The notes under the pieces were generated by a model. It did not search any database. It was not told where the DNA came from and saw only the letters and a list, made by a program, of their open reading frames with translations. A stretch of 64,000 nt of DNA from Rosellinia necatrix (lineage: Eukaryota > Ascomycota > Sordariomycetes > Xylariales > Xylariaceae): the NCBI GenBank assembly GCA_021209875.1, contig JAGYVD010000006.1:1736001-1800000 (forward strand), in the 5' to 3' direction. Shown here one piece after another: positions 7,945-59,515 of this stretch. The first letter of the stretch is position 1, and every line of letters starts with the position of its first letter. The position numbers were made by a program, and so were the translations under genes.

Positions 7945-9658
7945 GAGATAGAAAAGGGGCTGTGCTCATTATAGTAATAAATAGGCTGGGAAATCTTATC
8001 GAACGGCTATTCCCCGTGCTGGATGTTGAGGCAGGAGAATGAAAAGTATAAGGTTCATAAACGCGTGTTAGCCGTACCTGACATAGTGATAGTACATATA
8101 TGCAATTAGTATCGCGAACGTAATTACTACTCAGTGGTTACCTGCTGCGGCGGACTCCCATGTCATTTACTGGATCTATCCCATCTACGACTTCGCTCCC
8201 TATCGCTGCAGATTGGAACATAGACGGGACAGACGCCTTGGCCTAACTGTGAAGGTCAAAATATAACATACGCCATCAATGCAATATCCACAGTCGCTTT
8301 CGTTCCCAGCCGCCTGGAGGCCCCCCTACACTAAACTATATATGACGTGGAGTCGACGTCGATCTATTCTTGTGTGGCTTGACGGGTCACTGAAAACCGG
8401 TTGTGATCTTAGAACAGGGTGAGAACTGTCTCACCCCCCCTCCACTAAACTAAAGTCCGCTGCATCTGCAGGGATTAAGGGGGAGGGGTCTACATAGCAT
8501 GCCGTTGAACCTACTACATCCCTATGACTGCTGCTGGACCGGCACTGGCCGGACACATTAGCAGAGACCCTCAGACTTACCCTTCGACCCCCACACATGT
8601 TACGAAAAGGAAAAACTAATATTGCTCCTTGATCATGCTAAAAATGACGATCTAACGGCCTTCAAGCTAACTTGGGCAGCTCGTAACACATCCTTGGTCA
8701 GTGTGGCTGTCATGGGTTGCGTGGCTGATGGAGGGATTAGAACTGCACGCCAACTTTTGGGTGGTTTTTGCATTCATGTTGTGTAATATCAGGGGCTTTG
8801 GAAGGCGGCACTTCACACTCAACGCCACCGTCATTATGTATGTTGCATACATACTCGAGATACTGTAGGTACCTAGTTTGTCGAGATCGAGATCTGGAGG
8901 AAGCCACATCCATAGTGGCCGTGAAACGCGAGCGAATATGTCAGATTCCTTGTTTTCGGCCGTCAAATCTCTCCCGCTGGACCAATTAGAAGGTGAGTAT
9001 CCATCTAGACCGAGGGCTAGCATCTAGCTGCACATACACTTTTCGCTAAACATCACATATCTCACTTAGGCCGTGACTAGGTAACAACCAGCAAGTCTAA
9101 GAAGGCGGCGAGTGTGAGATCACTCGGCTATGCAAGGTAACCTGCTAAACTTCATCACACCTTACGTTCGGACCGGCATATGCTCCATCCTAGTGTTGGA
9201 CAGTAAAAGCAGCCTCATTCGTGGCTTGACCGGACGGTGCGAGAGTCATCGACATGGGTTCCATGTGGCGGCCTGCCTCGAATGACGTTCTAGTCATGAA
9301 CCTCCAACGCCCTACCTGATGGACATGACGTCGGACTCCATGTACGAAGGGTTCAAAGTTGCGGGGACGAGTGGGAAGTCAGGTCTTGTTATCATCAAGC
9401 GTATCCCTCCGCCGACGGAGTGACGTAAGTAGACGTAGCGGCAGCATTTCACCTCCCGAGAACTCACTATATCTTCCCTATCGAACCTACAGTATCCGTC
9501 TCGAGATGGAGGAGAACAACTCAAAACCTACGCTCAATGAAAACCAACCAAACACATCGCAAATATCACAATACCCTCTCATATATCTCAGAACCCCTAT
9601 AAACATCCGAGAACTTAACATACACGAGAACCCGGTAAACGTCATCCACCCAGCCGCC
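7945..9658. other. Intergenic region between the two DUF3659-type genes
   Basis: About 1.7 kb with no supported gene. Short ORFs at 8667-9023 overlap on both strands and have no motifs. The open frame of the next gene extends back to 9359, but the good start is at 9659, so 9359-9658 is probably 5' leader. Confidence 0.5.
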
Positions 9659-12600
9659 ATGTCAGGCATCGCAGGATCAGCCCGGAGCGTGACGAGCCGC
9701 GCGGGCAAGACGGCGTCGCAGACGGGCCTTACGGAGAACGCGCCCCGGACGCCCCAAGGCCAGCAGCTACAGCAAGCGGAACCGAGGTCAATGCCGGACG
9801 TGTCGGAATCGCGGCCGGATCTCGGAGAGGAGGAGGGCTCAAGCGTGGAGAACGAAGGCGAGATGGTGCCGGCGGCGGGACGCATCAACGAGCGCGGCGA
9901 CGTCGTCGACGACGACGGCAACGCCATTGGACGCGTGCTGACGAGCGGAGCGGCGACGGCGTCCCGGTTCGCCGGCTACGTCGTCACGCAGGAAGGCGAC
10001 ATCCTCGACGACGACGGCGGCGTCGTCGGCAAGGCCGAGCCCCTCGAGGACGTCGCCTCCAACCTCAACTACACCACACAGTCCGCCATGGACGTCCACG
10101 CGCCGCCCGAGGGCGAAGACCAGCCGAAGGAAGAGGACGGTGACCGGGAGAGCCGCCTCGGCGGTGGAGGCCTTGGCAGCGCGTTCGGTGGCGTCGCGGA
10201 TACTGCGCGCTCGGCGGCGGGAACCGCCACGGGGGCGGCCGGCGATGCGGCTCAGGGCGCTACTGATGCTGCTGGAGACGCGGCCGGAACCCACGAGGCC
10301 GCGAGCGCTGTGGGCGGCGCCGCGGGAAGGGTTACGGATGCTGCTGGTGATGCTGTGGAAGGCGCTACAGATGCTGCTGGAGATGCCGCCGAAGGCGTAA
10401 CAGGCATAACAGGCATCCCTGATGATGTTGCCGACGAAGCTGCTGATATTCCAGAAGGAGATGTCGATGTACCTGAAGGTGATATCAATGTGCCTGAAGG
10501 CGGCGCTGATGCCGCTGGTGACATTGCGGACGGCGCAACACTTCCCACGGCTGGAGAAGCAGTAGAAGGAGCCCCTGAGGACGCGGAACAAGGCATTGAA
10601 GGCGTTGCAGAAGCTGCCCCGTCAGGCACCGGCCTAGGCGACTTAGGCTCTAAAGCAGTCGGTTCAAAAGCTCTCGGCTCCAAAGTACCAGGCTCTAAAG
10701 CGCTCGGCTCTCAAGCAGCCGGCTCCAAAGCTCTAGGCTCACAGGCCCATGGTCTTACCGAACAAGCCCCTATCCCCATAGATATCCCGTCGCTATCGCC
10801 CTCGGTAGCAAACAAGGTTATTGCTATGTTCGACGGCCCTTTCACCATTGCCGACGGTGGGAAGGTCACCGACCAGTCCGGCAAGGTACTGGGTAAACTT
10901 GCGAATGGCTCTGACATTCAAGACTTGATAGGCAAGGAAGTCAAGGGCATCGATGAGCAAGGCAATATGCTGGGTGAAAACGATACCATCATTGGCAAAA
11001 TAGACATCGCACCGGAGGGCTCCATGGCCGAACGGGTCAAAGTGGAAGTTCCTGAGGCCGCAGACAGGCTGAACGCCCTACAGGCAGCGCAGGCAGAGAT
11101 AGAGGCACCAGTCAAAATCCCATCCTTCACGTCTTCCGTCGCTGGCAAGGTAATCGCCATGTTCGAGAGCCCGTTCAACATCGCCGAGGACGGCCAGGTC
11201 ACCGACCAGAAAGGCAAGATCCTGGGCAAGCTGGCCGAGGGACAAGATTTCCACAGCCTAGTGGGGAAGGACATCAAGGGCATCGACGAGCACGGGAATC
11301 TTCTCGGTGACAATGGCACTGAGCTTGGAAAGGTCGACCTGGTGCCCGAGGGTACCATTGTCGAGCGAATCAAGGAGCAGATTCCGGAAGCTGCCGAGCG
11401 CCTAGACGCTATTGAGGCTGCGAAGCTACAGGCCGAAGAGGCCGCCGGGCCCGATTTATCTATCCTTGAAGGCCTGAAGATCAACAAGATGGGCAACGTT
11501 GTCGACGCCAATGGCAACCCGATCGGTAGAGTCAAGAGCGGTGACCTGAAGAGACTCATCGGCAAGGTACCTGATAAGGATGGCAAGGTCTGGGACGACC
11601 GCGGTAAGGTCATCGGCGAAGTAGAGCTCCTCCCGGAAGTCATTAAAAACGAGTCGTCCCCGTTCGAGGACTTCCCCGACGCGGTTGTCGACAAGTTCGG
11701 CAAGGTCATCTACGATGGCCGCCAGGTGGGCGTCGTCGTCGGAGAGGACTGGCAGAACCTGATCGGCAAGAAGGTAGATGCGGACGGCGACATCCTGGAC
11801 AAGAACGGCAATGTCATCGGCCACGCCGAACGCCAGGAGGAAGAAGAGCCGGAGGAGCCCGAAGAGGAGGAGATTGACTACTCCATGCTGCGAGATAAGA
11901 AGGTCAACAAGATGGGCAACGTGGTGGATGATAAGGGGCAGGTCTGGGGCCATGTCGTGCAGGGCGTGCTCAAGCTGCTCATCGGCAAGAAGGTCGGCGA
12001 CAAGGGCCAGATCTTCAACGATGCGGGGAAGGTGATCGGACAGGCGGAGCCGATCCCGGAGAGCGAGCGCGAGGAGACCAAGGAGCCGGCACCGTTTGAG
12101 GACTTCCCGGACGCTGTGGTGGGCGATGACGGGGCCGTGCTGTCGGGCGGCGAGAAGATCGGCGTCGTAGTCGAGGGCGACGCCAAGAAGCTGAAAGGCA
12201 AGGCCGTCGACCCGGACGGCGACATCCTCGACCGCGCGGGCAATACGCTCGGCCGCGCCGAGCGCTGGGAGCCCGAGCCCGAGCCCGAGCCCGAGGAGGT
12301 CGACATGTCGGCACTCGCGGGCAAGCGCATCAACAAGGCCGGCAACGCGGTGGACTCGCACGGCGACATCTATGGGCGCGTGATCGAAGGCCCGCTGGCC
12401 CGCCTCGTCGGAAAGATGTGCGACAAGAACGGCTTCATCCGCAACGAGGGCGGCGACGTCATCGGCAAGTGCGAGCTCATCCCCGAGGCCGAACGCGAGG
12501 GCATGAAGGAGGGGCCCTTCACAGAGCTCTCCGGCTGTACTGTCACCAAAGAGGGTAAGGTCGTGACGCCCGGCGGGGACGTCGTCGGACGCCTGGTGTC

Positions 12601-13097
12601 CGGGGACGCGCGCGCGCTCGCGGGCCGGCCCGTCGACGACGACGGCGACATCCTCGACAAGAACGGCAACGTGCTCGGGCACGCGGAGCGCTGGGAGGAG
12701 CCCGAGGTCGAGAGAGAAGTCAGCCCCATGTCCGGCCGCAAGGTCAACCGCGAGGGCAAGGTCGTGGACGAGAACGGCGACGTCATCGGCAAGCTGACGA
12801 CGGGCGAGCTCAGCCAGTGCGCGGGGAAGAAAATCGACGACGACGGCGACGTCGTGGACCAGAAGGGCGCCGTCCTCGGTCACTGCTCGCTGCTCGAGGA
12901 CATCCCGCCCACGCCCGAGCCTGAGCCGGAGCCGGAGCCGGAGCCCGAACCCGAGGAGACGGAGGAGGAGCGCGAGGAGCGCCTCCGCAGGGAGCTGGAT
13001 CGTAAGATCGCCGGCCAGATCGCGTTCTGCATCGAGCAGTCGCTGGACAAGATCAAGCCGATCTGCAGGATGATCGTCGAGGTACGTCAAATCATAT

Positions 13098-13135
<38 letters not shown>

Positions 13136-13698
13136 GTAGTATGACTTTAAAAGGCTAACGAGACACGCCAAATAGCGAATCAACCAAGAAGAGGCGAAGT
13201 CGGAAGAGGACCGCGACGAGGAGGAGCTGGTGAAGCAGGTGCGTCCGCTGATCGAGGAAGGGGGCAAGATCCTGACGGAGGCGAACGGGGTGATCCGGGG
13301 GGCTGGACCCGGACGGGCGGATCTCGGCGCAGGCGAAGCACCACTCGGCCGGGCACGAGGCGACGCCGGAGGAGTACCACCTCGCGGAGCTGCTCAAGGA
13401 GCTGACGGGCACGGTGACGGAGACGATCGAGAACGCCAAGCGCAAGCTCGAGAACCTGCCCAAGGCCAAGAAGGGGATCAACCCGCTCTGGGGCCTGCTG
13501 TCCGAGCCCCTCTTCCAGATCGTCGCCGCCGTCGGCCTCCTGCTCAGCGGCGTCCTCGGCCTCGTCGGGAAGCTCCTCAACGGCCTCGGCCTCGGCGGGC
13601 TCGTCAATAACCTGCTCGGCGGCCTCGGGCTGACCAAGGTCCTCGATGGGCTTGGCCTCGGCGTTATCCTGAACCCGCTTACTGGCAAGAAGAAATAA
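9659..13698 (+). CDS. Giant LEA-like protein with about 20 DUF3659-type repeat units and hydrophobic C-terminus (one frameshift)
   Basis: Start at 9659 (GCCGCCATGTC; MSGIAGSARSVTSRAGK). Exon 1 is 9659-13081 and exon 2 starts at 13176; the intron has donor GTACGT and acceptor AATAG and contains a CT microsatellite. Domains: two DUF3659-type units near residues 70-130; LEA-like Ala/Gly/Asp repeats (DAAGDAVEGATDAAGDAAEG, about 190-300); a GSKALGS-type repeat (about 330-360); then about 18 further units of the form G-x-V-x-D-x-x-G-x-V-I-G (380-1090) separated by acidic linkers. The end is the domain I recall as DUF6987: an amphipathic helical part, then PLFQIVAAVGLLLSGVLGL and Gly-Leu repeats. 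The frame shifts +1 at a G6 run (13297-13302). Without it the protein is about 1314 residues. From memory such proteins are called LEA-domain or DUF3659 proteins; the molecular role is unproven and septal, cytoplasmic or stress roles are inference. Confidence 0.8.
13082..13175 (+). other. Intron with CT microsatellite in the giant LEA-like gene
   Basis: GTACGT donor, CTAAC branch-like motif in AGGCTAACG, and acceptor CAAATAG. It joins GAG to CGA in phase 0. The dinucleotide CT run lies at 13106-13133. Confidence 0.85.
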
Positions 13699-24013: not shown

Positions 24014-27000
24014 TCACTTCACCTCGAAGTACTGGCGGCGCTGCTGGTGCTCCTGGTAGTCGGGGAACATGGTGGGGTAGAACTCGGACCAGCCGCCCAT
24101 GCGGACGCGGAGGAGGTTGTACTTCTCGGGGTCCTCGGAGGCGCGGCGGTAGGTGTCGGGGTCAGCACAGGTGAGGGTGAGGAGGTTGCCACCGACGGTG
24201 CCCTCGGCGAAGTCGCGGACGAACTTCTGCAGGTCCTCAAGCGGGAAGTCCTCGGGGATGTTCATGTCGACGGGGGCCGCGTTGGAGATGCCGATCTCGA
24301 CGGCGTCGTTCCGGTAGCACTCCATGGCGGCGTAGATGTCGCGGTTGACGGGCTGCGGGGGTAGGTCCTGCGGACTCGGGACGGGCGACATGTCGGAGGC
24401 GATGGGGGCGCCGTTGCGGCGCCCGTCGGCGGACGCGCCGCACGTCAGGCCGTCTCCTACGAAACCCTCGAACGTGCCGACGCCAGGGGTCACGACGAAT
24501 TCGAATCCTGGGCCGTACTTGGTATAGATGCGGTCGAGCACGGGCTTCAGCCCCGGGGCGGGCTTGCGGATCGCCTCGACGCAGATGCGCACCATGTTAT
24601 CGATCAGCCACCGGCCGAGCTCCTCGATTCCGGCGTCCCGCTCGCCGTTGGCCCACTTTGGCAGCGACATGGCCACCTCGCGCAGCTCCTGGTACCGTAC
24701 CGCGTTGGCCGCCGCGTTGGCCGGGCCTAGGGACTTGTCCTGGTACGGCTCAATCATGCTGTAGCCCCAGTCGCAGATCAGGCACCTCACGAGCTCCGGG
24801 AGCGTCACGCGCGCCGACTCCGGGTCGAAGACGAGCTTCTTGATCGCGTAGAGCGAGTCGATCGTGTTGGCCGTGCCAATGCACAGGGGGGCGACTATGG
24901 AGATCCGATATCAGCTTTTGGGTGGCATTTATAAGGGAAATGAGGGCTCGGGAGGAAGGGGCGACTGTTAGGATATATCTCTGAAACGGGAAATAAAAGA
25001 AAGGAAAGGGAGGTTATACGTACTCATGTGGAATTTTGCGCCGCCGGCCGTCAGGTCGCGGCCAGACTCGACGCAGCCGTCGAGGACGGCGGAGAGCATG
25101 GGAGAGGGGCAGATGCCCTCGAAGTTGCCGTAGGCGTTGAGAACGGTATTGTAGCTACGGTTGACGAGCCAGGAGAACTGCTGGAGGAAGACGGCCTTGA
25201 GCTGGTCGAAGGACTTGATGTCGGCGGCCGCGGGGGAGCGGAAGGCCTGCTTGAGGCCGCGCAGGTGCACCGATCCGGCCATGCCGTAGGTAGACCCTTG
25301 GTTGAGGGCCTGCTCGAGCGCCGCCATGGGCTCGACGTTGCCAAAGGTGAACTCGGACGCGCCCGCCATCATCGGCTCAAAGCAGCCGTCAGCGGCGTAG
25401 TCGCGCGACCACGCGCGCGTGATGCCCCCGCCGGACCGGAAGAGCCCTTCGCACATCTTGTCGTCGTTGTACAGGATCGGATGCGCGCCGCCCGACAGGA
25501 TCGACGCCGCAGCCTCGTCGATGTACTCCTGCGGGATGCCCTTGTACACACGCAGCGAGAGGCAGGGCGCGTTGACAGGGATGCGGCGCGCCGCCTTGAG
25601 GCACAGGAGAGTGACGAGGTTGGCGCCGCCCTCCGGCGTCTCGCTGTCCGTGGCCTTGTACCCGCCCACGGTGACCTGCTGCACCCACTGGTTGATGCCG
25701 CCGCCCTGGGGAAAGTTGCCGCCGAGGCCGTTGATGGACGTGGTGCCGTAGCTCCTATAATCGTAGATGAACGCACGGTTCACAAATGCATTCTCGCCTA
25801 GCTTCACCCAGAGACAGTCTATGATATCCTGTGCGCGGTCGGCAGTAATGAGGTTCTTCTCGAGGTCTTTCTCAAGATAGGGCCAGAGGATCTGGTCCAG
25901 TCGGCCGACGGCGGTGAGCTCGCCAACCAGATGGAGACAGGTGTGGAAGGTGAAGATGAGCTGCACTGCGTCTTGGAAACTGGCGGGGGGGTTGTTCACG
26001 AGACGCTGGAGGCGGTCCCTGACGTCCGCCATGTTTTCTTTGTCGTCCGTGTCAGTGGTCTCGTCATGCGCCTTGGCCGCTATCGCCGCCCAATTGACGA
26101 GGTAGGCTTGAACACCTTTGAACGAGTCGCTAGCGGAGATATAGAATGATGCCTTCTCGGCGCCACCCTCTTCTTTTGCAGCCGCCTCTGCCCGTCGGTC
26201 GAAATCCTCGATCATTTTTGCTAACCCATTGTCTACGAGGGTCTGCATGTTGGGTACGATATGGCCCATAGCACTCCATTCACTCTGGATTGACGTATTA
26301 GATATCATCACCTTTAACGAATGTCTTAACAAGAGGGGAAATACATACGAGCTGACATTTTAGCCATGCGGCCATGGTTTCATCTTCGGTTAGGTAAGGG
26401 ACTACTTCCTTTCCTCTGCCTAGCGTGAAGTCGGGTATCGCACCAACGATCAGCTCCTTAACCGCTATGCGGACTAAACCGGTGTCTTTCGCGATTTTCG
26501 AGGTCGGCAATGAAAGAAGATTGGCCAAAGTCGCGAAATTAGCAAGGCCCTTGCGTTCAAGAATTGAATCTGGGACTGCAGTCTTCTTCACGATAGGAAG
26601 TAGCTCCTTTAAGTGTGGTAAGAGCGGGAAATGTTCGCCCTTCATCCAACCGTCTCGCCAGTGGTTGAACGTCCTCGATAGGAGGCTTAGAAGACGGACG
26701 CTCGGCTGATCTCCCGAGGCATAATAACCCTCTGCCATCTGATGCATGTAATCCTGCGTGTTATAGTAGAGATAGCCGTTGCGGCTTCGGACCTTCCAGT
26801 GAGGATCTTCATACGTGTCATCTCCGGGCCTGACCCCAGAGACATCCAACTCGGCCGCCGAAGGGATGTACCAGTAGCTGCCGCCCTCGCCCTGGATGAA
26901 ATCCATTAGGCGGTCGACTGGTCTCTCTGGGCGGTCGCCGAGCATACTCTGCAGTATCTTCTCGAACCTATCTTGTTCGTTGGCGAAGGCTACGAACATG

Positions 27001-27785
27001 ATGCCCTCCTCGCGACTGGCATGTCCATTGGACTCGTCATAAGGGAGAGCTTGACGCAGCAGTTTTCTCTGGTCGCGGTTCTTGTCTATCGTATGCGCAC
27101 GATGAATGTGAGCGTTGACAGCCCTGTCAGCTTGCTGGGAGATTATCTCGCCGTTTGGCCGCCGCCCAAGCACAGCATCTAGAGCATCGCCAGACTGCGA
27201 GTTGAGGTCGGGCCAGTCAAAGACAAACTTTTGCGTGAAACAGAAACTAGAGCCGCTGTCTAAGCCGCCACTGGTAACTAGGATGTCCTCGGCCAAGCTG
27301 ATGGGATCATTGGGGTTGCTGATATGGTCGACATAACGACCCCCCATAACTCGCCCATCCGGTCGTTTACCCAGTCCCAAGGTTTCAATATTATTGACAA
27401 TCGGGAATAATTTTTGGATGAACGTGGCAACAATCTCTGCTCCGATCGTCTTGTCTGGCGACTTAATGTAGATCAGGACATCTCCGCCGGTATCCTTGAA
27501 ATGAAGGCCGTGTTTGAGCACATCAGATGTGATAGGAATGTCCCGGCCAGTCCATTTCCCCCATAATGCCGGCGCAAAGCCGACGACGAAGGCACAGTCT
27601 TGGTGGTTTTCGTTGATTTCTTTGTCTAGGTCCTTCATGATCTGACGAATAATTGCCTGTGCGTCATCGCCATGGTTCTTGAGAAAGATGGTCAAGATCT
27701 GGCCAAAATGGGGTCGCATGGGAAGGCCGCGTTGAGCTGCCCCAAGGCAGGAGCGAAGCGCTCTGTCCATAGTATCGCTAACCAT
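24014..27785 (-). CDS. DyP-type peroxidase fused to glycyl radical enzyme (PFL-like)
   Basis: Three exons (minus): 26349-27785, 25024-26284 and 24014-24894. Introns are GTATGT...ATCCAG (phase 0) and GTACGT...CCATAG (phase 1). Product about 1192 residues, no signal peptide. Residues 1-330 are DyP-like: VVGFAPALWGKW, GGDVLIYIKSPD, GRYVDHISNPND (catalytic Asp), NAHIHRAH (proximal His region), LRQALPYDE (distal Arg), EEGIMFVAFANEQDRF. From about 350 a full glycyl radical enzyme follows: KELIVG, GRLDQILWPYLEKDL, GGANLVTLLCLKAARR, HPILYNDDK, ADGCFEPM (active Cys about 780, with C-x-E as in dehydratase/decarboxylase-type members), and a C-terminal radical loop RVRMGGWSEFYPTMF (Gly about 1167). Substrate unknown. 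The first intron spans the domain junction and its splice keeps both frames, so the fusion rests on that prediction. No radical-SAM activase is seen nearby. Confidence 0.88.
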
Positions 27786-41050: not shown

Positions 41051-42538
41051 ATGCCCGTTACAGCATTCGAGCTTCCCGAACGACACAAGTACCAGAACGG
41101 GTTCGGATCATACTTCGAGTAGGTTACCCATCGTCTATGGGCGGTAGAGTTCATATATAAATATAAATACATCATCGGGATAACGCTCACATTACAGCTC
41201 ATCAGAACCGAAGCCGTTCCAGGCGCCCTCCCCATCGGCCAAAACTCCCCCCAGAAACCTCCACATGGGCTCTATGCCGAAAAGCTCTCAGGAACCGCCT
41301 TCACGGCTCCCCGGCACGAGAACCAGCAATCCTGGCTATACCGAATTCTTCCGTCCTGTGCCCATCCCCCCTTCACTTCGGTAGCCGACGGGCCTTTCCA
41401 GTCCGACAAGCCCAGTAGCCCCGCGAGACTCGAGTACATCCCGAACCAGCTGCGGTGGGACCCCTTCGACCATGACAACCAATCCGATTTCGTGTCCGGG
41501 CTGCGTCTCGTTGCCGGTGCCGGCGATCCTACGCTGAAGCAAGGTATCGGCATGTACATATATGCCGCTGGCAGGTCCATGGACGCCCACTCCGCCTTCT
41601 ATTCAGCCGACGGCGACCTATTGATCGTGGCACAAGAGGGTGCCCTCGATATCCGGACGGAGTTGGGGTGGCTGCTTGTCCGGCCGATGGAGATCTGTGT
41701 TATCCCACGCGGCGTTAAATACCAGGTTCATCTACCGTCCGGGCCCGCACGGGGCTATGCTCTAGAACTATACCAAGGACACTTTACCCTGCCGGAGTTG
41801 GGTCCTATCGGCTCCAATTGTCTTGCCAACGCCCGCGATTTCCAGGCCCCAGTCGCGGACTTCAGTGAGGACTATGGCGCCACCGCATCGGAGGGCCCGA
41901 ATTCCTATACGATCACCGTGAAGTTCAACAACTCATTATTCCAGACCAAGCAGCCCCATACGCCCTTCGACGTCGTGGCGTGGCATGGTAACTACTACCC
42001 GTATAAGTACGATCTCGGCCGCTTCAACACCATCGGCTCCATCTCTTTCGATCACCCGGATCCGTCTATCTTCACCGTTCTCTCGGCGCTATCGGACCAC
42101 CCGGGAACAGCGATCGCTGATTTCGTCATCTTCCCACCACGCTGGCTGGTGGCCGAAAATACATTCCGGCCTCCATGGTACCACCGCAACACTATGTCCG
42201 AATTCATGGGCCTCATTGCTGGTGACTACGACGCGAAGAAGGGGGGGAAGGGAGGCTTCATGCCCGGAGGTGCCAGCTTACACAACGTCATGAGCGGTCA
42301 TGGGCCGGACGCGAATAGCTTCGAGGGTGCGCGGAATGCGGAGCTAAAGCCGGCTTTGGTGGGCAAGGGAAGCTGTGCCTTCATGTTCGAGAGCAGCTTG
42401 ATGATTGGCGTGACAGAATGGGGCCTGAAGATGTGCAGCAAGGTCCAGGAGGGCTACAGCGACGAGAGTTGGGGTGGTGTCAAGGTCCATTGGAAACGCC
42501 CGGAAGTCCCCGACATCAACGAACAACCCCCCAACTAA
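41051..42538 (+). CDS. hmgA: Homogentisate 1,2-dioxygenase
   Basis: Two exons: 41051-41118 and 41206-42538. The intron is GTAGGT...CTCATCAG, and the junction restores [20 protein letters not shown]. Product 466 residues; family members are about 440-450. Family signatures are [30 protein letters not shown] and [19 protein letters not shown]. The iron site is visible: His and Glu in [15 protein letters not shown] and His in [15 protein letters not shown]. The enzyme opens the aromatic ring of homogentisate to maleylacetoacetate in tyrosine/phenylalanine catabolism (cytosolic, Fe(II)-dependent). The last enzyme of the same route, fumarylacetoacetase, is at 54073-55426. Maleylacetoacetate isomerase and 4-hydroxyphenylpyruvate dioxygenase were not seen in the window. 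The symbol follows the Aspergillus name. Confidence 0.95.
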
Positions 42539-49556: not shown

Positions 49557-52455
49557 CTAAAACGCATCCCTGAAAGGCGGGTACACGCTACCACGCGGTG
49601 GGCCAAAGGGCATGGTTGGAGCGCCGGGGGCGACTCCGGCGCCAACGACACTCGGGTCACCGTGGCCCAGGCCGTCGTGTAGTTGGTTGTGCTTGACCGA
49701 GACGCCCTCGAATATCCTCGACATCTCGCTAGACATTTGCACCGGCGTCTGCATGCCGTCGAACCCCGGGGACGGCGGGACCAGGAGCGAGTGGCCAAAG
49801 GGAGAGATCACCACGTGGCTTGGTGCCGTCTGGCTGTGGCCCGTAGCCAACCCGGCCATCGTTAGCGCGGCGCTCGAGTGGGGGTCCTCGGCCAGGCCGA
49901 GGCGAGGCGCGACGTCCCGCAGCGATTTGACCGTGCCCCAGAGACGCTTCGACACCCACGACTTGGTCGACATGTCTTTGAGCAGCTCCAGCGCCATGTA
50001 GAACTCGTCCCGGCAGGATGAACTGAAGTTCACGGGCGCATGGCAAGACGCCACGAACAGGATCGTGATGGCCGACGAGAGGAATTGGTGATAGAATATC
50101 TGCATTTTCCGGTAGACATTCGTGGTATTGTTGAGATGGGCCAGGTACCGGATGGTGTTCTTGGCCAGCTTGACAGCGACCTCGGCGTGACGCAAATTAT
50201 CCATAATGCTACTGTGTGTGTGAAGGATCGGGGTGTGGAGCCACATTCGAATTTGATTGTACCGCAACCAAGTCCAGATTTGTAAACGCTGGATATCATA
50301 CTCCTTCTGCGAATTCACCGGCGGGCTTAGATACTGGGGCAGGGCCTCCCAATCGGATAGGACCAGCTGTACTTCCTTCGGTAGCTCATTGTACCATGTC
50401 TTAATCAGCTGATCCAAGTGTTCTATATCATCTACCGGTGCATCCATGCTTGCTTCCGAGTCAAAGTGTCTAACGAACCGCCATACTCTTCCGCTGAGCT
50501 TTGAATATGTTATCATCATTACGAGGAAAGGGAACTGCTCCTGACACGATGGGTGTTAGAGAGAGATTCGTCAAGAGGCGATGGGCGATGGGCGATGGGC
50601 GAAATCAGAAACCAGACAGAAGCACTGATATTCCACACACCCATATGGTGCAATTCCACTTACTGGGGATGGTAGGCTGGAATCTATTTCCTCATCTGGC
50701 ACTACATAGGGCAGGCCGGCGGAAAACGCCCATCGACGATCCAAGACGTACACGCTCCAGAACGTACTAATGGCAAGCCTCCGTTCCTCTTCGTCCTTAA
50801 TCTGCTGGACGGCTTCGCGTCGGTGAAGACCTAATTCGAGACAAAGTCTCACAACCTGACCCATAACGCGCCAACACAAGACCTCGTCCGCCGAGAGGAA
50901 ATGGTATCCAGCCTAGCAAGGTCAGCCATTACTACACAGAAAGCGACGCCACAACGGCATGGGTAGGTGAATCTAGAGGGCGGGGGTTGGGGGAATGACG
51001 TACAACGAGAGCCAGAAAAGGTAGCGTTCGGACATTAGGCGGATCACTCATCAACATTCTATTCGCGATAGACTTGATACCAGCGAATATCCTTTGAGCC
51101 TGTGCGCTACTACCGTGGCCTTCGACAAGCAAACCACCGCACAAGACGATCTTCAGAAGCAAGGTATTCGGATCGTTGATACCCCCGTTCTGGCCACCGG
51201 CAAGGCCGCCCCTCTTCGCGGCCTCCATCCATGTTGCCAACGTTTTGGCGTGAGAAATGATGGACTCGATGCTGAGGACGGGGTACATGATGCCGACTTC
51301 CTCCTCGTAAATGCGGCATATGCGTATCATTTCATCTTTGTCGAGTTCCCATAGTGCGTCCACGGTAGGATTCTCGACGGACGGAGCTATCTGAGGCCCT
51401 AGCTTAGGAGAGGTGCTAGGCGTCTCCTGGGCGTTGCCGTTCGCGTCGGCATGGTCGCTGGGGTAAGAATACCCCATCTTATGCAGGGTATTCTTCGCGA
51501 CGTCGAGGCTGAAGCGATTGCTAGTCGGTCCCCGAAACGAGGGCTGACGCGGCTGCGGGAGCATCGTCATGGTAGTCGAGGTCGGGGTACTGGCGGCCGA
51601 GGGGCCATTCAGCGACCGGTCGGGCTGGTGTAGGGAGCCGGCCCGTAGTGTTTCGGCCCGGAGGGCGTGCAAGCTGTTAAATAGCGTCTCGACCTGTTCT
51701 TGCAGGTGGTTAACGCGATTTGCCATCTGCTTGAACTCTTCCGAGTCCTTGACGCTGCTGGCGCAGCAATTAGGGGCGTATAGACATTGTAGGTTGAGGT
51801 GGCCACACCGGCCGCAGGGGGTCTCCCCATTGCACTTTATCTTGCGCCGCTTGCATTCATTGCAGGCGATGGATATGTATCGGTTCCGTTTACTCCTCTG
51901 CTGGGGCCCGGACTTGGGAGCATTCGGTAGTTCGTCATCGTCGTCGTCGAGGTCAACGCCCGGATTCTTGCGCTTCGCGCCGGCCACCGATGCGGGCGTT
52001 GGCGCGCCCGGCGTTGAGGCGGTGACCGACGGGGTCGCGGATGATGTTATGGTGTCGTGTCGCGTAGTGGAGGCCTGCTTCTTCGCCCTCTTGTCGGGTT
52101 TGCTGGTGTTCTGACGCGACTGTGCACGTTGCGTGGCAGAAGAGCTGTGGTTGATGTTGTTACTATTACCGTTGTTATTGTTGTTATTGTTGTTATTGTT
52201 GTTATTGTTGTTATTGTTGTTATTGTTGTTATTGCTGTTGTTGCTGTTGTTGCTGTTGTTGCCGTTGTTGTTGTTGTTGTTGTTTCTGCTGCCGGACGCA
52301 TCGGCACCGCTGTTCGCTATCGTGGCGCTGGCCGACGCCGCTGGTGATGAGGAGGTGCCCGGCGTGACGGGCGGTGCGACGCTGCCCGCGGCAGAAGGGT
52401 CGGGGAGAGTGGTCAGGTATCGCACCTCGCCGACTTGGTTCTCGAAGAACTCCAT
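49557..52455 (-). CDS. Zn2Cys6 transcription factor with fungal regulatory domain
   Basis: Three exons (minus): 51004-52455, 50664-50912 and 49557-50540. Introns are GTACGT...TTGCTAG and GTAAGT...TGTCAG, both phase 0. About 894 residues. N-terminus: Ser/Ala/Thr-rich, then a poly-Asn tract of about 40 residues (52156-52289), a basic stretch, then the binuclear zinc cluster CNECKRRKIKCNGETPCGRC continuing GHLNLQC (spacing C2-C6-C5-C2-C6-C). A short coiled-coil linker (FKQMANRVNHLQEQVETLF) follows for dimerisation. The middle homology domain contains AGYHFLSADEVLCWRVMGQV, RLCLELGLHRRE, FWSVYVLDRRWAFSAGLPYV. The C-terminal 100 residues are Pro/Gly/Ser-rich. A nuclear DNA-binding regulator; its targets could be the surrounding metabolic genes (inference from position only). 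Confidence 0.93.
52150..52289. repeat. (GTT/ATT)n trinucleotide repeat encoding poly-Asn
   Basis: About 45 triplets, mostly GTT with periodic ATT and GCT, reading AAC/AAT on the coding strand of the zinc-cluster factor. Confidence 0.9.
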
Positions 52456-54072
52456 GCCCTTGGATCTTCTGCTGCTGTGTCGTGGCTCTCTCGCATGGCC
52501 AGCGTCGTGAGCATCGTGGCCGCGGGGTCCGTCCGTGTAGGTGGCAGGCGAGAGGAGAAAGAGATCGGGATCGAGATGGAGATGGAGACAGAGGGTCTGG
52601 AGACGGTATGCCTACCCGTGTCCGTCCGTCCTTTGCCGAGTGACAAGCTTCTTTTCCAGGCTTCCTGCTGGCGCTTTGGCCCTATTGGGTCTACCTCGTT
52701 GCCCATTACCTAGGTGAGTTAGGCGGGTACATGTCTCTGAGGTAACCCGCCGTGCCTGCCTGTGTCCCCCTTATCCATCTCCTGCTAGATCGGTACTTTC
52801 GTCTAGCGGACATGTTCCTGGGTTTAGTGTACACACTTCACCTACACTACCTCACTACGCTACCTACACTACGATAGGCCCCTACGATAGGCCCCTACGA
52901 CACTACATGGGTGCGTAGTAGATGGTGGGTGCCCCCAACACGCCAGCCGCTCCAGCTCGTCGTGTAATTAGCTGCACCCCGAGTCACGACCCGGTAACGG
53001 CCAACGGGAGCAAACGATGCCTAACCTTGTAACTATTGGGTTAAGCTGTTTCAGGTACTCGGAAGCGGCAAAGAACGCCTCGATTAGCTGTGCATGGTGC
53101 TTCAGCTGAAAAACGAACTCTTGGCTCCCCAACGCCCAACAAGCCACCACAGCCGGCTTAGTGTACTATGTGCGCCTTAGGTGTTGCCAAGGTCGCCGCC
53201 CCTTTCTGCCTCCTTCGATTGCAATACGTCGTTATCTGCCGGTAGGGTTGTTGTGTGAAATCCCGGGAAGCCACGTGGATATGTCGCGTATGTGTTCGCA
53301 ACGATGCCTCATTACCAATGTGGGTAGTTGTGATAATGTGAGATGCAACGTCGTAGTGTATAGACGCATATAGCCCCCGTGGTGCTTAATGCATTAGGTG
53401 CTTACGACGAGCAGGGTGTTTTGAGCTGCCCGCAATACTACGCAGCACTACGCAATACGCAAAGCTTCTCTATCATCCTTGCCCCATAATCCTGGATTCG
53501 AGAACAATTTTGTTTGTTTGTTCTTTGATGATGTAATGAGGAAGAAGGGAGCACCTAACGACTTCAGGTTAGTTTATAGGAGCTAGCCTAGGTTGTAGCT
53601 ATAATAGACCATTTCTGATTGGCACCAAGCTTTCTTGGAGGGCGATATGAAGGATTGACACACTACTGCCATGTATGTACATCCTTCAATGAAGGATGGT
53701 ACCCAAAAGCCCTGCTCTGCGTATGCTAGAGCACGGAGGTACTTTGTCCGCCAGCGAGGATTCCAAATATATACAAATGGCCCCAGCTAGCCCCGAGTAT
53801 TGATAGAGTTTAATCCATCCAATGGGCCAGGGTCAGGTGGCTAGTGGTTAAGCTTCCTTGATCGATATTCGTTGACGCCATACCACTGTAGGTAAGTTAA
53901 CCTAAAGCAACACATCCATACGTTGAGATTGGACGCGCTCAAGCCCTCATTGCTTCGCCGCGCATGGTATGTGCCAAGGAATACACCATCTGTGATATGC
54001 ATGTCTAGACGAAGCTAGCATTTTTTGTCTTCTCGGGATACAACGTTAAAATAGTTGCATAGGAACCACCCA
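52456..54072. other. Intergenic region
   Basis: Holds the promoter of the zinc-cluster factor and the 3' flank of fumarylacetoacetase. Short CTACGATAGGCCC direct repeats occur at 52867-52897. No gene supported. Confidence 0.5.
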
Positions 54073-55426
54073 TCACAGAGGTAAGGCAGTTTCAATCCTG
54101 CCGACACACTCACCAAATCCTACCCTCTGCCCCGGTTTCCCACAGCTTCCACGAATCGTGATGGTATCGCCATCCTTCAAGAATCGGCGAACATCCATAC
54201 CATAAAGCATAATGTCCTCCTTTCCCCCTTTGCTTAACTCAAGGAGACTGCCACTTTCTCGAGGGTCTGGTCCACTAATGGTGCCCGACCCCAGCAAGTC
54301 GCCAGTGTTCATCGGACAGCCGCCAAGAGAATGATGGGCGATCATTTGCGGGAACGACCACATTAGATTCTTTGAGCTCGTTCGACAGATCGTCGTCGTA
54401 TCTCCTTGCGGCGCTGTGGAACGTTAGCCACGGGATACCTTTTTCGTCTGATTAGCATGCTCAGCACTTACTTTCGATGTCTACCTCCAGCTCAATATCA
54501 AAAACTGTCTCTTCCCTACCATCTTTAAGATAGCCCTGTAACGCTGTTTTGTTCTCAATTGGTCTGGTCCGGAATGGCTCCAAGGCATCGGCCAATACAA
54601 CCCAGGGGCTAATGGTTGAGGCGAAATTCTTGCTATTAAATGGGCCCAACGGAACGTATTCCCATGTTTGTATGTCGCGCGCGCTCCAGTCGTTCAGAAG
54701 GACGTATCCAAAGATGTGGTCCTCAGCATCGGCAATTTTGATAGGAGAGCCCATTCGGTTTGGTTTTGCGATGATACAACCCAATTCGAGCTCGATGTCT
54801 AACCGCCTGCTAGGTCCTGTTATGGGCTGCTTCGGCTCTGCTGTCGGGTCAAGCAGAATTTGCCCGTTTGGACGACAGATAGGCGTGCCTGAAACCACGA
54901 TGCTGGAGGCACGTCCATGATACCCCACGGGAAGATGTGTGTAGTTCGGCTGCAGAGCGTGCTGTGGGCCACGGAACATAACTCCAACCGCGTAAGCATG
55001 ATGGTATCCGGCGTAAAAATCCGTGTAGTCCCCGATGCTCACAGGAAGGTGAACCTTCACGCTCCTCTGAGAAAGAAGGGCCTTCTGGCGTAGCTCGTCG
55101 TTATCTCTCAGCGCCTCTGGGTTTGTCGTCTCGGCTGATAAGAGTCGTTGTATAGCGCCCCGCACACCCCGATGAACCTCCCTCCCTAATGCTGCAAACT
55201 CGTTGAGAGTCGGTGCGGAGAGGACATCTTCTTTCCCCGCTAAGGTTGGGAAGAGCTCAGCGAACTTGCTATGGGTCGCTAGGACTTTGAGGTCAAGAAC
55301 ATGAGCACCGATTGCCACAGCAGCATGCGGCGCGGGGTCGTTAGATGTGCTTATAATTCCAAAAGGGATATTTGCTAAGGAGAAAGGGGTGTCAGGCGAG
55401 ACGCCAGGTACCCACGTGGCGCTCAT
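54073..55426 (-). CDS. fahA: Fumarylacetoacetase
   Basis: Two exons (minus): 54472-55426 and 54073-54413. The intron is GTAAGT...TCCACAG (phase 1), and the junction reads ELEVDIE-TPQGDTTTICRTSS. About 431 residues, the usual length. N-terminal domain: PFSLANIPFGIISTS and HVLDLK. Catalytic domain: DYTDFYAGYHHAYAVGVMFR (metal Asp and catalytic His), LPVGYHGRASSIVVSGTPI, RRLDIELELGCII (metal Glu pair), GYVLLNDWSARDIQTWEYVP (metal Asp), and HHSLGGCPMNTGDLLGSGTI. It hydrolyses fumarylacetoacetate to fumarate and acetoacetate, the last step after homogentisate ring opening. Its partner dioxygenase is 11.5 kb away at 41051-42538. The symbol follows the Aspergillus name. Confidence 0.95.
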
Positions 55427-56315
55427 TATATCTACCTCGTATCTTGTTCACGACAGTTGCTTACAGAGGAAGAACAGAGGTTGCTCTCGATGTTCGGGTC
55501 AGGAATGCCGTGTTGGTGGTTGTGCAACTTGAGATCAAGAAACTTAGCATCCGATGCAAGCCGCCCCGCATCTTCCGCTGTGGGGCAATCTTTGCGAGTC
55601 AAACGCCTACAGGCTACCAGATACCTAACTAAACGTTGCCTATGTACCACCTTTGCGAGCGGAAGGCTTTGCTTCCCAAAAATAGCTCCTGCCCCCCCTG
55701 CAAGTAAATACATACTAGGCGCACAGATCAAGCTACTCTCATTTCTTTCCCTTCCCCCATCCCCTATGGTAAACCAAGCTATGTGCTATCGAGATCCCTA
55801 GGCTGACTACCTACTCAAGGCAGATTACTGACGCTAGACGCACTAAGAGTGCAAAGCAACAACGATGATTTCGAAGGCGACCGACGGCCATCACGTCAAT
55901 CATAACGTCTAACAGCATAGGTCAGGGGACTATCTAGGTCATGACAGTCTTAGCCAGGAACGGCGAATCAAGTTAATTATTACCCAATACAAACCCCTCT
56001 CTGTGCAAGTTAAACGTTACCAAGAAAGAATCCAATATGAAGGAGGACTGTCCCGGACTCCATTATAGCACATCTGAACGCCTGGCTTCTTCATATATGC
56101 AGTCGTGACCTCGGCCAGCTATCCAACGAAAAATAATAAAAATTGTACACAAGACTAATAGTGAATCCAATATGCTTCAAGGGTGCTGCCATCTAGATTA
56201 AAAGCTTCTCAAAATCGGATATCGTCAGCCGAGATGCAACCTAACGGCGATGGCTGTGACAGCAACCCCGCGAATGATACCGAGTGTACCACGAAGAAGG
56301 AAGGAGCCCTGGTGA
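55427..56315. other. Intergenic region
   Basis: The left part is the promoter of fumarylacetoacetase. Overlapping short ORFs at 55432-55801 have no motifs. Confidence 0.5.
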
Positions 56316-57515
56316 TCACCGCGAGGGGATAACCCGAGTAATCTCCGTGAGGTTATTAAGGTTATTGACGCCAAGCAAACTCATGCGGAAATAAGCTTGT
56401 GCATAAGCCTGACATCATCTACGTTAGTTATTTCTCCTCTAAGACCATAAAAAAAGCGAAAAGAAAAGGAAGGGTTTCCAACAACGCCGAAAAGGGCACA
56501 CGCAGAGGGAAAAAAAAAAGAAGGAAAAACTCACGGGGTTCCACAGCGGCTGACCGAGGGCGCCGGCGAAGGCAGCCCACTGCAATTTGGTCTGCGCGTA
56601 GGTGGAGAGAGCCTTGTCGCTGTGCAGGATGAAGAAGGTCTTGTTGTCGCCAGTCTGGACGTCACGGTAGAAGCCGGCGTCCCAGATCTGCGGGTCCGGG
56701 TCGAGCGGGGCGCCGGCGCGGGCGGGGTCGACGAAGCGCTGGCGGGCGCTCGTGTGCGCGCCCACGAGGGCGACGAGGTCCGAGGCCGTGAACGTCTTGG
56801 CGGCGAAGAGCGACACGAGCTCGGGCCCGTCCATGGAGGGCACGGGGAGCTTCCCGGCCGGCGCCGCGCGCGCGTCGTCCGGCCGCCCGGCGAACGCACG
56901 GATCCGCGGGCCCCCGGGACACGCCACGGTCCCCACGAGCGCGCCCAGCTGGATGATGTCCGCCATACCCGCCCCGAACGGGTGGTACGTCGCGTAGTAC
57001 GCCCGCGTCCGCGCCCCGATCGCCTGCAGGCCCAGGTTCTCGCGCCGGTCGAGCTCCGTCGTCAGCAGGATCGACCCGTCCGCCCCGCCGTACGCGGAGC
57101 TCGTGTCCCACGCCCCCGCGTCGTGGAAGCCCAGCCGCACCGCGCCGCGCGCGAGGTCCGTACAGCCGTTCGCGTCCGCGAAGTCCGCCCACATCGTCGC
57201 CGCCACGTACGACCAGAGGCAGAGCGGGTCCGCGCTGCACGCGCTAGAGCCGAGCGGCCCCGGCGGCGTGTAGGCTGCGGACGCCGCCGCGCCCGCGCCC
57301 GGGGCGGTGGCGTTCGTCTTGAGCTGGAGGATGTCCTTGATCACTTGGCCCGTTTTCGTCGGCGTGCCTGACCGCAGGTCGCCGAGGAGGACGTCGGACC
57401 GCGCCTGCAGGTCGAAGTCCGAGCGGGCTTGGATCTCGGCCAGCGCTCTGCTCATGCCCGGGTGGGCGGAGGCTTGCGCCGCGGCGTAAAGAAGAAAGAT
57501 GGTAGAGCTCTTCAT
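56316..57515 (-). CDS. Secreted class II-like heme peroxidase
   Basis: Two exons (minus): 56535-57515 and 56316-56408. The intron has donor GTGAGT, branch AACTAACG and acceptor ATGTCAG. The second exon gives AYAQAYFRMSLLGVNNLNNL, then TEITRVIPSR, the usual C-terminal helix of this family. About 357 residues. The start at 57515 was chosen because it gives the signal peptide MKSSTIFLLYAAAQASA; upstream Met at 57569 lacks that shape. Heme-pocket motifs: distal AVRLGFHDAGAWD (Arg and His), and proximal DLVALVGAHTSARQRF (His). Also GGADGSILLTTELDRREN and VACPGGPRIRAFAGRPDD. Cysteines CSADPLC and NGCTD fit disulfide bonding. It oxidises phenolic or other substrates with H2O2 outside the cell. It is related to ascomycete class II-like peroxidases; lignin activity cannot be inferred. 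Confidence 0.92.
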
Positions 57516-59515
57516 ACTTGGAAGGTAGGAGGCTCGGTGACCTTGTGAGAAGGGGTATCTATGATACAATGTCTTCCTCTGGTTTAATTAATAGAGGGGT
57601 ATGAAGCTGGGATTCTAGACTGGGGAAGAGGTAATGGTTTTGCAAAAGAACGACAAGAGGGTAAAAGAGTGTTGCCCTGATATATTATGGACGTCAGGCT
57701 TAATTACAAGTCTCAGGCCATTATCAGTGTAGTCTTGCCAGAATGCTTTATATTTATATATTTTTATCATCTCTGTCTCATACCTGTGGCGTTTATATGT
57801 ATTGAAACTGAACGCCACCAGCTTCCACTATTGCCGAAGGCGCCGCCTCTTGCGTGGGTGCCAAAAAGTCGAGCTGCAGCTTGGCTTGATGCACTTGGTA
57901 TGCACTCAGATGCATGCGCCGCGTGCACACGAGCTACTCGGGGCTGTATGCAGATGATTTCGGTTGTCTCTCTCAGGCCTGAGTGAGGCCTGACATGCAT
58001 GGGCTGTATGCCATAAAGCTATCATACGACAGCTTCAGGTCACCGTTCTTCATCTTCCGCTGGAACACGGGGGCGGCATGATTATGCGCCTGTATCGCGC
58101 AAGCATCGCTCGATCGGTACAGCTCAAAGATGACAGCATTCGTATTCCAACCATGGCGCTGGCCTGGATCGGTCTCAAAGGGGGGGGGTTACGCTTCAGC
58201 GGTCAGCTCGGTTGCATCGTCGTTACAGACTGCCCAGAAACTGTTCTAAGAGCAGATTATTTCCTCAGGTGGCGATTTAAATAACCCGTTTTCAAGTTGA
58301 TGCTTTTGCTGTCTTTCAGGAGTAACGTGATGGAATAAGCAACCCCTGATTGGCCATGAATCATCAAAGCCGTAACGCCTCTTGGCACTAAAGCTGCGCC
58401 TTGATATCGGATATCCGGATACATATTGTGCGCTCATCTAACACACATTCCCACTTCTGTAAATTTGCGCAGAAAGGCGGCACATAAAAGGAGAACGTGT
58501 CGACATACCAGGGTTAGAATAGGCGAAAAGCATGACCTCTGTCTCCTTCGGTCCCGGTTCTGTCGTACTCAGGCAGCAGGACAGGAGGCCAGACAGACAG
58601 TGCGGTTTCAAGCTGACAGCAGGTTCTCTCTGTCGTGGTTGTATTTCCTACGGTCGTGTGATATCGACCCAGTTTAGGGTTGATGTTAGCTGGTTTTACC
58701 CCAATGCTTATCAACGTGCTCCCGGTCACGATGGTACACGATAACTAGTAACCGGGAAAAAAGGCCAATGAATGTATAGCTGACTCCTGAGTCTCTAGAT
58801 TTAAATGACTAGAGACGGCTCGCCTTAGGGGGTTCCTCCGGCTTGAATCAAAACATTACGGCTTAGACGGCTCGGGCTGGATGTCTGATTTACCATGCAC
58901 TGCATCTGCCTGCTTGCCGCGGTCCGGCTTGCATCATGCAAGCCCGGCCAAAGACAGCTGACGAGTGAAATTCCGTTGCCAATCTGATCGACGCTAGGGT
59001 CTCAGCAAGTTTGAACTTATAGCCGCTTAATTATAAGGGAGAGAGGGGTAGTTACTGCCAGGATTGAGTGATAGTATAGACCTGCTACCTGGAGCTAAAG
59101 CGATGCTATGCCGGCTTGGCAAGACAATATCAATACCAAGACCCGAACCAAGAGCTAAGATCCCGACGGGGCGGTTTGTAACACTCTTAGATAATAATAG
59201 ACTGAAAGGAGCGATAATTGTAAGATTAATAGGGATGTGGGATCATGTTGTGTACCACGAGCTTAGTAGAGATCGCCTCGGATATTAAACGGGAGGCGTT
59301 CAACGAGGTAAAAACGATAGAACCAAAAACGGAAATAAAATAAACAAGACGCGAACTTCTCCGATCCCGACCGAGCACTTTAATTAAAGCATAACACACT
59401 GAACGCGATCAGGAAGCCCAGGGTCATCCCCTTCGACTGCATCCTACCCCAGTACGCCTAACATGAGTCGGGTCGCGTCCAGCCCGATCTATCCGCTCCG
59501 GCGATGACGATGGTG
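57516..59515. other. 2-kb intergenic region
   Basis: No supported gene. An AT-rich, somewhat ORF-like stretch at 59041-59290 has no recognisable domain. The gene at 59516 ends here, so the right part is its 3' flank. Confidence 0.45.

Follow-up and report, generated by a model that had tools for sequence, protein, structure and literature searches.

A fused DyP peroxidase and divergent glycyl radical enzyme in Rosellinia necatrix, with a possible peroxidase-dependent route to the catalytic radical

In a stretch of 64,000 nucleotides of the genome of the root-rot fungus Rosellinia necatrix (contig JAGYVD010000006.1, positions 1,736,001 to 1,800,000; the window), we analyzed a gene on the minus strand which encodes a DyP peroxidase and a glycyl radical enzyme (GRE) in one protein of 1192 residues. 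GREs are textbook anaerobic enzymes, which are normally charged by radical-SAM activases. In the family of the R. necatrix protein the catalytic Cys, Glu and Gly are conserved, the loop around the radical glycine is altered, a DyP is linked to the GRE at all readable loci, and a GRE activase was not detected in R. necatrix and gave no strong match in 43 of 46 bacterial host genomes. We propose, with a probability of about 0.5, that the peroxidase half uses H2O2 to make the catalytic radical of the GRE half and thereby replaces the radical-SAM activase. More tentatively, these proteins might form a class of radical-SAM-free glycyl or thiyl radical enzymes, in which a DyP replaces the activase in genomic position as well as in function and which works in organisms living in air.

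The three exons form one continuous spliced frame for a single DyP and GRE protein, with the start ATG at 27785 and the stop codon at 24016-24014. Both predicted introns are based on splice signals, the open frame and the match to a R. necatrix database protein, which is identical to the window product at 1188 of 1192 positions. A first-pass annotation of the window had described one polypeptide joining a DyP peroxidase to a GRE, a GTATGT-ATCCAG intron and catalytic motifs in both halves. The single polypeptide is confirmed by the frame, the Pfam matches and the database protein, the intron was found at 26285-26348 (64 nucleotides) and the motifs were recovered in the alignments. Intron 2, which was absent from that annotation, was accepted because the 1192-residue frame needs its removal. 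The probability that two adjacent genes were falsely merged by the gene model is close to nil. Both domains are found in uninterrupted open reading frames (ORFs) at 28 bacterial loci, for example in the intron-free gene of Andreprevotia lacus (L009, 1167 residues), and the same join occurs in 115 of the 120 listed homologues, which hold both Pfam domains. The fusion is therefore no splicing artefact, and a gene-calling artefact is ruled out as an explanation for the family. An AlphaFold model of the whole 1192-residue chain reached a pTM of 0.94, which suggests that the two halves are held in a fixed, defined arrangement.

The PFL-like model (PF02901) matched residues 472-1007 of the window protein over its cut-off (E 8.2e-103). 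The Gly_radical model (PF01228) scored 14.4 bits against the same protein, under the cut-off of 22.2, and gave no match in a search of the R. necatrix genome. Seven relatives in which GRE and DyP are encoded by two genes exceed this cut-off with 22.3-31.4 bits. Since the Gly_radical cut-off was missed, the GRE half is considered a divergent branch and not a conventional member. For the analysis of conservation 108 relatives were aligned, 96 of them fused and 12 from two-gene loci. Cys780, Glu782, His487, Arg1162, Arg1164, Gly1166, Gly1167 and Trp1168 are identical in 108/108, and the invariance of Cys, Glu and Gly reaches sequences with 34% identity to the R. necatrix protein. Activases read the glycyl radical loop. 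In this family it has the form R-x-R-M-G-G-W-[ST]-E, compared with R-V-[AS]-G-Y in the three solved GREs that were aligned and in the canonical pyruvate formate-lyases (PFLs) of the host genomes. The motif is present in 112 of the 120 listed homologues; the other eight are shorter proteins of 676-1021 residues. The invariance of the GRE Cys, Glu and Gly in all 108 relatives, within the changed loop RMGGW[ST]E, is described here for the first time. It bears on the idea that the radical chemistry was lost and that the protein acts as an enzyme or sensor in peroxide stress, with a GRE half that serves structure, binding or the redox chemistry of a cysteine. The low Gly_radical score of the window protein and the undetected activase of R. 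necatrix are in line with such a loss, but the catalytic residues kept down to 34% identity and the two-gene relatives over the Gly_radical cut-off make it quite improbable.

The DyP half was identified by Dyp_perox_C (PF20628) at residues 151-311 (E 5.6e-23, 81.9 bits, cut-off 20) and by the NCBIfam model Dyp_perox_fam (TIGR01413; 129 bits, cut-off 100.5). The N-terminal DyP model PF04261 gave no match to the window protein at E values up to 1, so that of the three domains named in the first-pass annotation PF02901 was matched, PF01228 stayed under its cut-off and PF04261 was missing. In agreement with membership of the DyP family, the DyP fold extends across both halves of the domain, and the proximal His and the distal Asp and Arg are all present. 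From the alignment, the DyP half probably binds haem at His226. Arg258 was the first guess for the catalytic Arg; it varies among the aligned proteins, and the alignment to solved DyPs gives Arg244. The members of a subgroup of long fused proteins with 1308-1377 residues (L026, L036, L025, L028 and others) come from Myxococcota, Cyanobacteriota, Actinomycetota and other groups; in 11 of 11 aligned proteins the distal Asp is replaced by Glu, while His226 and Arg244 are retained.

Table 1. Features of the DyP-GRE fusion gene and its product in the window
Feature	Position	Strand	Description
DyP-GRE fusion gene, whole	24014..27785	(-)	3 exons, 1192-residue product
Exon 1	26349..27785	(-)	residues 1-479: DyP peroxidase domain and first part of the GRE domain
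Intron 1	26285..26348	(-)	64 nucleotides, GTATGT...ATCCAG
Exon 2	25024..26284	(-)	central GRE part, with Cys780 and Glu782
Intron 2	24895..25023	(-)	129 nucleotides, GTACGT...CCATAG; absent from the first-pass annotation
Exon 3	24014..24894	(-)	C-terminal GRE part and predicted glycyl radical loop
DyP fold	26841..27743	(-)	residues 15-315
Asp153, distal DyP aspartate (GGRYVD)	27327..27329	(-)	96 fused proteins: 80 D, 14 E, 1 N, 1 H
His226, predicted proximal haem ligand	27108..27110	(-)	96/96 fused proteins; aligned to solved DyPs
Arg244, distal DyP arginine (LLRQALP)	27054..27056	(-)	95/96 fused proteins; aligned to solved DyPs
GRE fold	24017..26795	(-)	residues ~331-1192
His487 of the MGH motif	26261..26263	(-)	108/108; aligned with GH of glycerol dehydratase
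Cys780-Phe781-Glu782, GRE active-site motif (C-x-E)	25376..25384	(-)	Cys and Glu 108/108
Gly1167, predicted radical glycine in RVRMGGWSE	24092..24094	(-)	108/108; gapless loop alignment to diol dehydratase 5i2a

For the identification of bacterial loci we scanned for two motifs, both taken from the GRE half alone, and therefore the presence of a DyP is not built into the resulting set of 48 loci. Fusions account for 31 of the 48: 28 are full-length, two (L023 and L055) are interrupted and one (L050) is a remnant. Another 14 encode a stand-alone GRE with a separate DyP gene immediately downstream (L037-L047, L049, L051, L053). The remaining three are unreadable: L048 ends within the GRE, L054 starts within the GRE and L056 is a remnant. 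A DyP, either fused or encoded by the next gene, is present at 45/45 readable loci of this GRE branch. All 28 full-length fusions match Dyp_perox_C and PFL-like, and all 14 separate DyP genes match both DyP Pfam models; the catalytic Asp, His and Arg of DyPs are invariant in their products. These DyPs form a group that looks different, and they are located after the GRE, not before it. An independent case is a plasmid of Hymenobacter cellulosilyticus, which carries the GRE (as two adjacent ORFs) together with a Dyp-type peroxidase and with PLD-like, HAD-like and VOC genes. The possibility that homologues are always encoded as two genes, raised in the first-pass annotation, holds for one lineage, in which the genes lie side by side at 14/14 readable loci, while the others are fused. 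The functional link between GRE and DyP is supported by this conserved adjacency. The occurrence of a two-gene form next to the fused form is new.

Conserved catalytic sites in both halves and the coexistence of fused and two-gene forms, as seen for enzymes of one pathway, would also be expected for two-step catalysis. Here the product of the DyP would be passed to the GRE half or the reverse, with substrate channelling and a separate source of the radical. However, this leaves the missing activase unexplained. In addition, no conserved metabolic neighbour was found beside the fused genes, and the two-gene loci are flanked by genes of the PLD-like, HAD-like, glyoxalase-like, nuclease and deaminase types. 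We regard two-step catalysis as rather unlikely.

Several further observations concern the loci themselves. At the two-gene loci and the fused locus L029 (L029, L037, L038, L041-L047, L049, L062) the genes nearby recurrently encode PLD-like, HAD-like and glyoxalase/VOC-like proteins, and also cytidine deaminase, DNA/RNA non-specific endonuclease and trypsin-like proteins. The HAD-like neighbour is sometimes joined to the C-terminus of the DyP. Decayed or interrupted fused genes occur in L050, L056, L023 and L055 (an Acidobacteriota metagenome-assembled genome, Saccharothrix, a Kordia metagenome-assembled genome and Saccharopolyspora), with an internal deletion, a remnant, stop codons or frame breaks, for which assembly errors are possible. 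In Pseudomonas sp. SDI and on an Asticcacaulis plasmid, a SUMF1/EgtB-like (sulfatase-modifying-factor-like) gene is located directly upstream of the fusion (L052 8537-9637, L063 6387-7391). Upstream of the two-gene locus in a Hellea genome (L047 4207-9447) are genes similar to those for the maturation of quinohemoprotein amine dehydrogenase, including a radical-SAM maturase and a QhpG-like monooxygenase.

The search for an activase was carried out with one model, TIGR02494. The searches of R. necatrix and of the host genomes were made exon by exon as a fast first look, and the numbers of radical-SAM genes given are minimum values. In the R. necatrix genome this model produced noise alone (15.3 bits), and the radical-SAM activase expected in the genome of a GRE host was not detected. 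At least six radical-SAM genes are present, with best matches to MoaA, LipA, viperin, TYW1, ELP3 and BioB; the exon pieces for TYW1, ELP3 and BioB are under the curated cut-offs. The viperin-like protein (L005) also matches Fer4_12 and, weakly, NrdG2. Because of these matches it may be a candidate for what was once named PFL activase in fungi. A query of the R. necatrix genome with the Andreprevotia activase gave no match, but this search had no positive control and is uninformative.

In the 46 bacterial host genomes, TIGR02494 gave three strong matches (127-150 bits, one of them over the cut-off); the next best reached 47.9 bits, and 43 of the 46 are without a strong match. The same three genomes are those with strong canonical Gly_radical matches, and in each of them the activase adjoins a canonical PFL with an RVSGY loop. 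In Chromobacterium alticapitis this pair lies about 8 kb from the fused gene. By their coordinates, the other seven Gly_radical matches over the cut-off in the host genomes are the two-gene relatives themselves. Among the weaker TIGR02494 matches, the ten best-placed were inspected. Two are MoaA, seven have their best match to the radical-SAM enzyme AmrS (six of them above its cut-off and L081 slightly below) and one (L075) gave no readable ORF; no hidden activase emerged from them. A radical-SAM motif search within the 48 loci returned just the activase of L033, which adjoins a canonical PFL, and one gene of L047. The latter, 3 kb upstream, was rejected as an activase, being closest to quinohemoprotein-type peptide maturases.

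As a control, ten canonical GRE loci were taken from 30 listed plasmid matches; some are close relatives of each other, and H13 was dropped, its record being without annotation. An annotated activase is located within 4 kb of the GRE in 10/10 and adjacent to it in 9/10, the exception being Enterococcus raffinosus (H11) with three genes in between. Given this control, the adjacency of the DyP and the lack of a detected activase place the DyP where an activase would be expected. New in this analysis are the lack of a detected activase and the changed loop. Conventional GREs with an activase were also seen on plasmids of Moraxella osloensis and Acinetobacter towneri (L061, L069), which is surprising for bacteria usually grown in air.

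For the haem, the radical transfer and the reaction we infer the following course. H2O2 would convert the DyP haem at His226 to a ferryl state, and the oxidising equivalent would move across the protein to Gly1167, Cys780 or both. Trp191, Tyr306, Trp376, Trp380 and Trp1168, which are conserved in at least 105/108 relatives or, in the DyP part, in at least 95/96 fused proteins, are candidates for a path of such a long-range transfer. The thiyl radical at Cys780 could then attack a small substrate, with Glu782 as the base, and a group would be eliminated as in the dehydratase and lyase branch of the GREs. An elimination, and not the pyruvate formate-lyase reaction, is expected because the motif is Gly-Cys-x-Glu. 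Several points weigh against the peroxidase as the source of the radical. O2 cuts glycyl radicals, and a glycyl radical beside peroxide would be unusual. The distal Asp is replaced by Glu in 14/96 fused proteins, and the Scalindua protein (L020) is without the distal Asp and the distal Arg; peroxidase activity is therefore possibly not universal. A split or very divergent activase could escape the exon-wise search, and TIGR02494 matches with E values of 0.001 or lower occur in 33 of the 46 host genomes. Finally, a putative PFL activase was published for Chaetomium cochliodes, known here by description only, which is 81% identical to CHGG_03160 and has counterparts in other filamentous fungi (PMC5041501). 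In support of the peroxide-driven radical, H2O2 was reported to induce the fused gene of C. cochliodes 3-fold and peroxyacetic acid to induce it 18.5-fold (PMC5041501).

Protection is the strongest rival, provided that the fungal activase candidate in print turns out to be genuine. The GRE would be an ordinary one whose activase has escaped recognition, and the DyP would do no more than remove H2O2 or O2-derived oxidants nearby. This agrees with the intact catalytic residues (108/108), with the induction by peroxide and peroxyacetic acid and the putative activase in Chaetomium (PMC5041501), and with the activase-related radical-SAM proteins kept in some host genomes, such as AmrS in at least 6-7 of 46. 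However, plain protection fits badly with the R. necatrix genome, in which an activase was not detected, and with the 43/46 host genomes without a strong match; within the 48 loci the radical-SAM motif search found only the L033 activase and the L047 peptide maturase, and the loop differs around the radical glycine. We consider protection unlikely, albeit the alternative to be taken most seriously. The first-pass annotation had suggested protection, the supply of an oxidised intermediate or a changed chemistry. The last is favoured here, with the peroxidase as the probable source of the radical, and the supply of an intermediate is kept as the two-step rival discussed above.

The family spans nine bacterial phyla and ascomycete fungi. 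A quick tree without bootstrap, rooted by choice on the two-gene group, separated the two-gene GREs from the rest by a fully supported branch. All 27 named fungal sequences fall into one branch of 49 (SH-aLRT 99) without any named bacterium, which adjoins mostly beta-proteobacterial fusions. How the long fused group connects to the two-gene group is uncertain, since the tree program gave a long-branch warning. As far as can be judged from these sequences, the tree agrees with the transfer from bacteria to fungi that was proposed for the fusion in C. cochliodes (PMC5041501). The architecture itself is not new. It has been described as a DyP-B/PFL fusion in C. cochliodes, where its significance was called elusive (PMC5041501), and in Xylaria grammica g1956 with two GenBank relatives (PMC8469222), so that the search for the same architecture in other fungi, suggested in the first-pass annotation, was successful. 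In the part available of another paper (PMC9064869), formate lyase or PFL is not mentioned. In the open-access literature searched we found no functional study of a DyP-GRE fusion, in line with that annotation, which knew of no described function, and nothing on point about activase-free glycyl radicals.

If the proposal is true, a haem peroxidase in the place of the activase would represent a second route to the radical and would give a reason why moulds and many soil bacteria retain such an enzyme. Radical eliminations could then be run with a single protein, and neither SAM nor strictly anaerobic activation would be needed. A published but unexplained fusion becomes a testable proposal, since the two-gene form lets the halves be studied separately.

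Elsewhere in the window, about 12 kb separate a homogentisate dioxygenase gene (41123-42538, plus strand) from a fumarylacetoacetase gene (54461-55447, minus strand). Together with a Zn2Cys6 regulator in the interval (50932-52611) they form a loose tyrosine-breakdown cluster. A second haem peroxidase gene (56439-57587, minus strand) belongs to the plant/fungal peroxidase family PF00141. An open frame of 1271 residues (9329-13144, plus strand) contains ten DUF3659 repeats.

Among known systems, the fusions of C. cochliodes and C. globosum (PMC5041501) and X. grammica g1956 (PMC8469222) belong to the same family, with an N-terminal DyP followed by a C-terminal PFL-like domain. In the parts of these papers available, a normal PFL with a radical-SAM activase is assumed, and no mention is made of a two-gene form, a missing activase or a changed loop. 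The B12-independent glycerol dehydratase (1r8w), 1,2-propanediol dehydratase (5i2a) and the choline trimethylamine-lyase CutC (5fau) share about 22-24% identity with the window protein. Their loop is RVAGY and their partner an activase, whereas here the loop is RMGGW[ST]E and the partner a DyP. The GHS and D positions of the dehydratase branch, which we take to be the glycerol binders in glycerol dehydratase, are not conserved in the family according to the alignment to solved GREs. The DyPs YfeX, KpDyP, DypB and DtpB are stand-alone proteins, in contrast to the DyPs described here, which are joined to or encoded beside a GRE. In class I ribonucleotide reductase, an O2-oxidised metal cofactor feeds a thiyl-radical barrel. 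That enzyme differs in cofactor, subunits and reaction, and no membership by sequence is claimed. The likeness is an analogy: an oxidised metal cofactor, and not radical SAM, would feed a thiyl radical in a related barrel.

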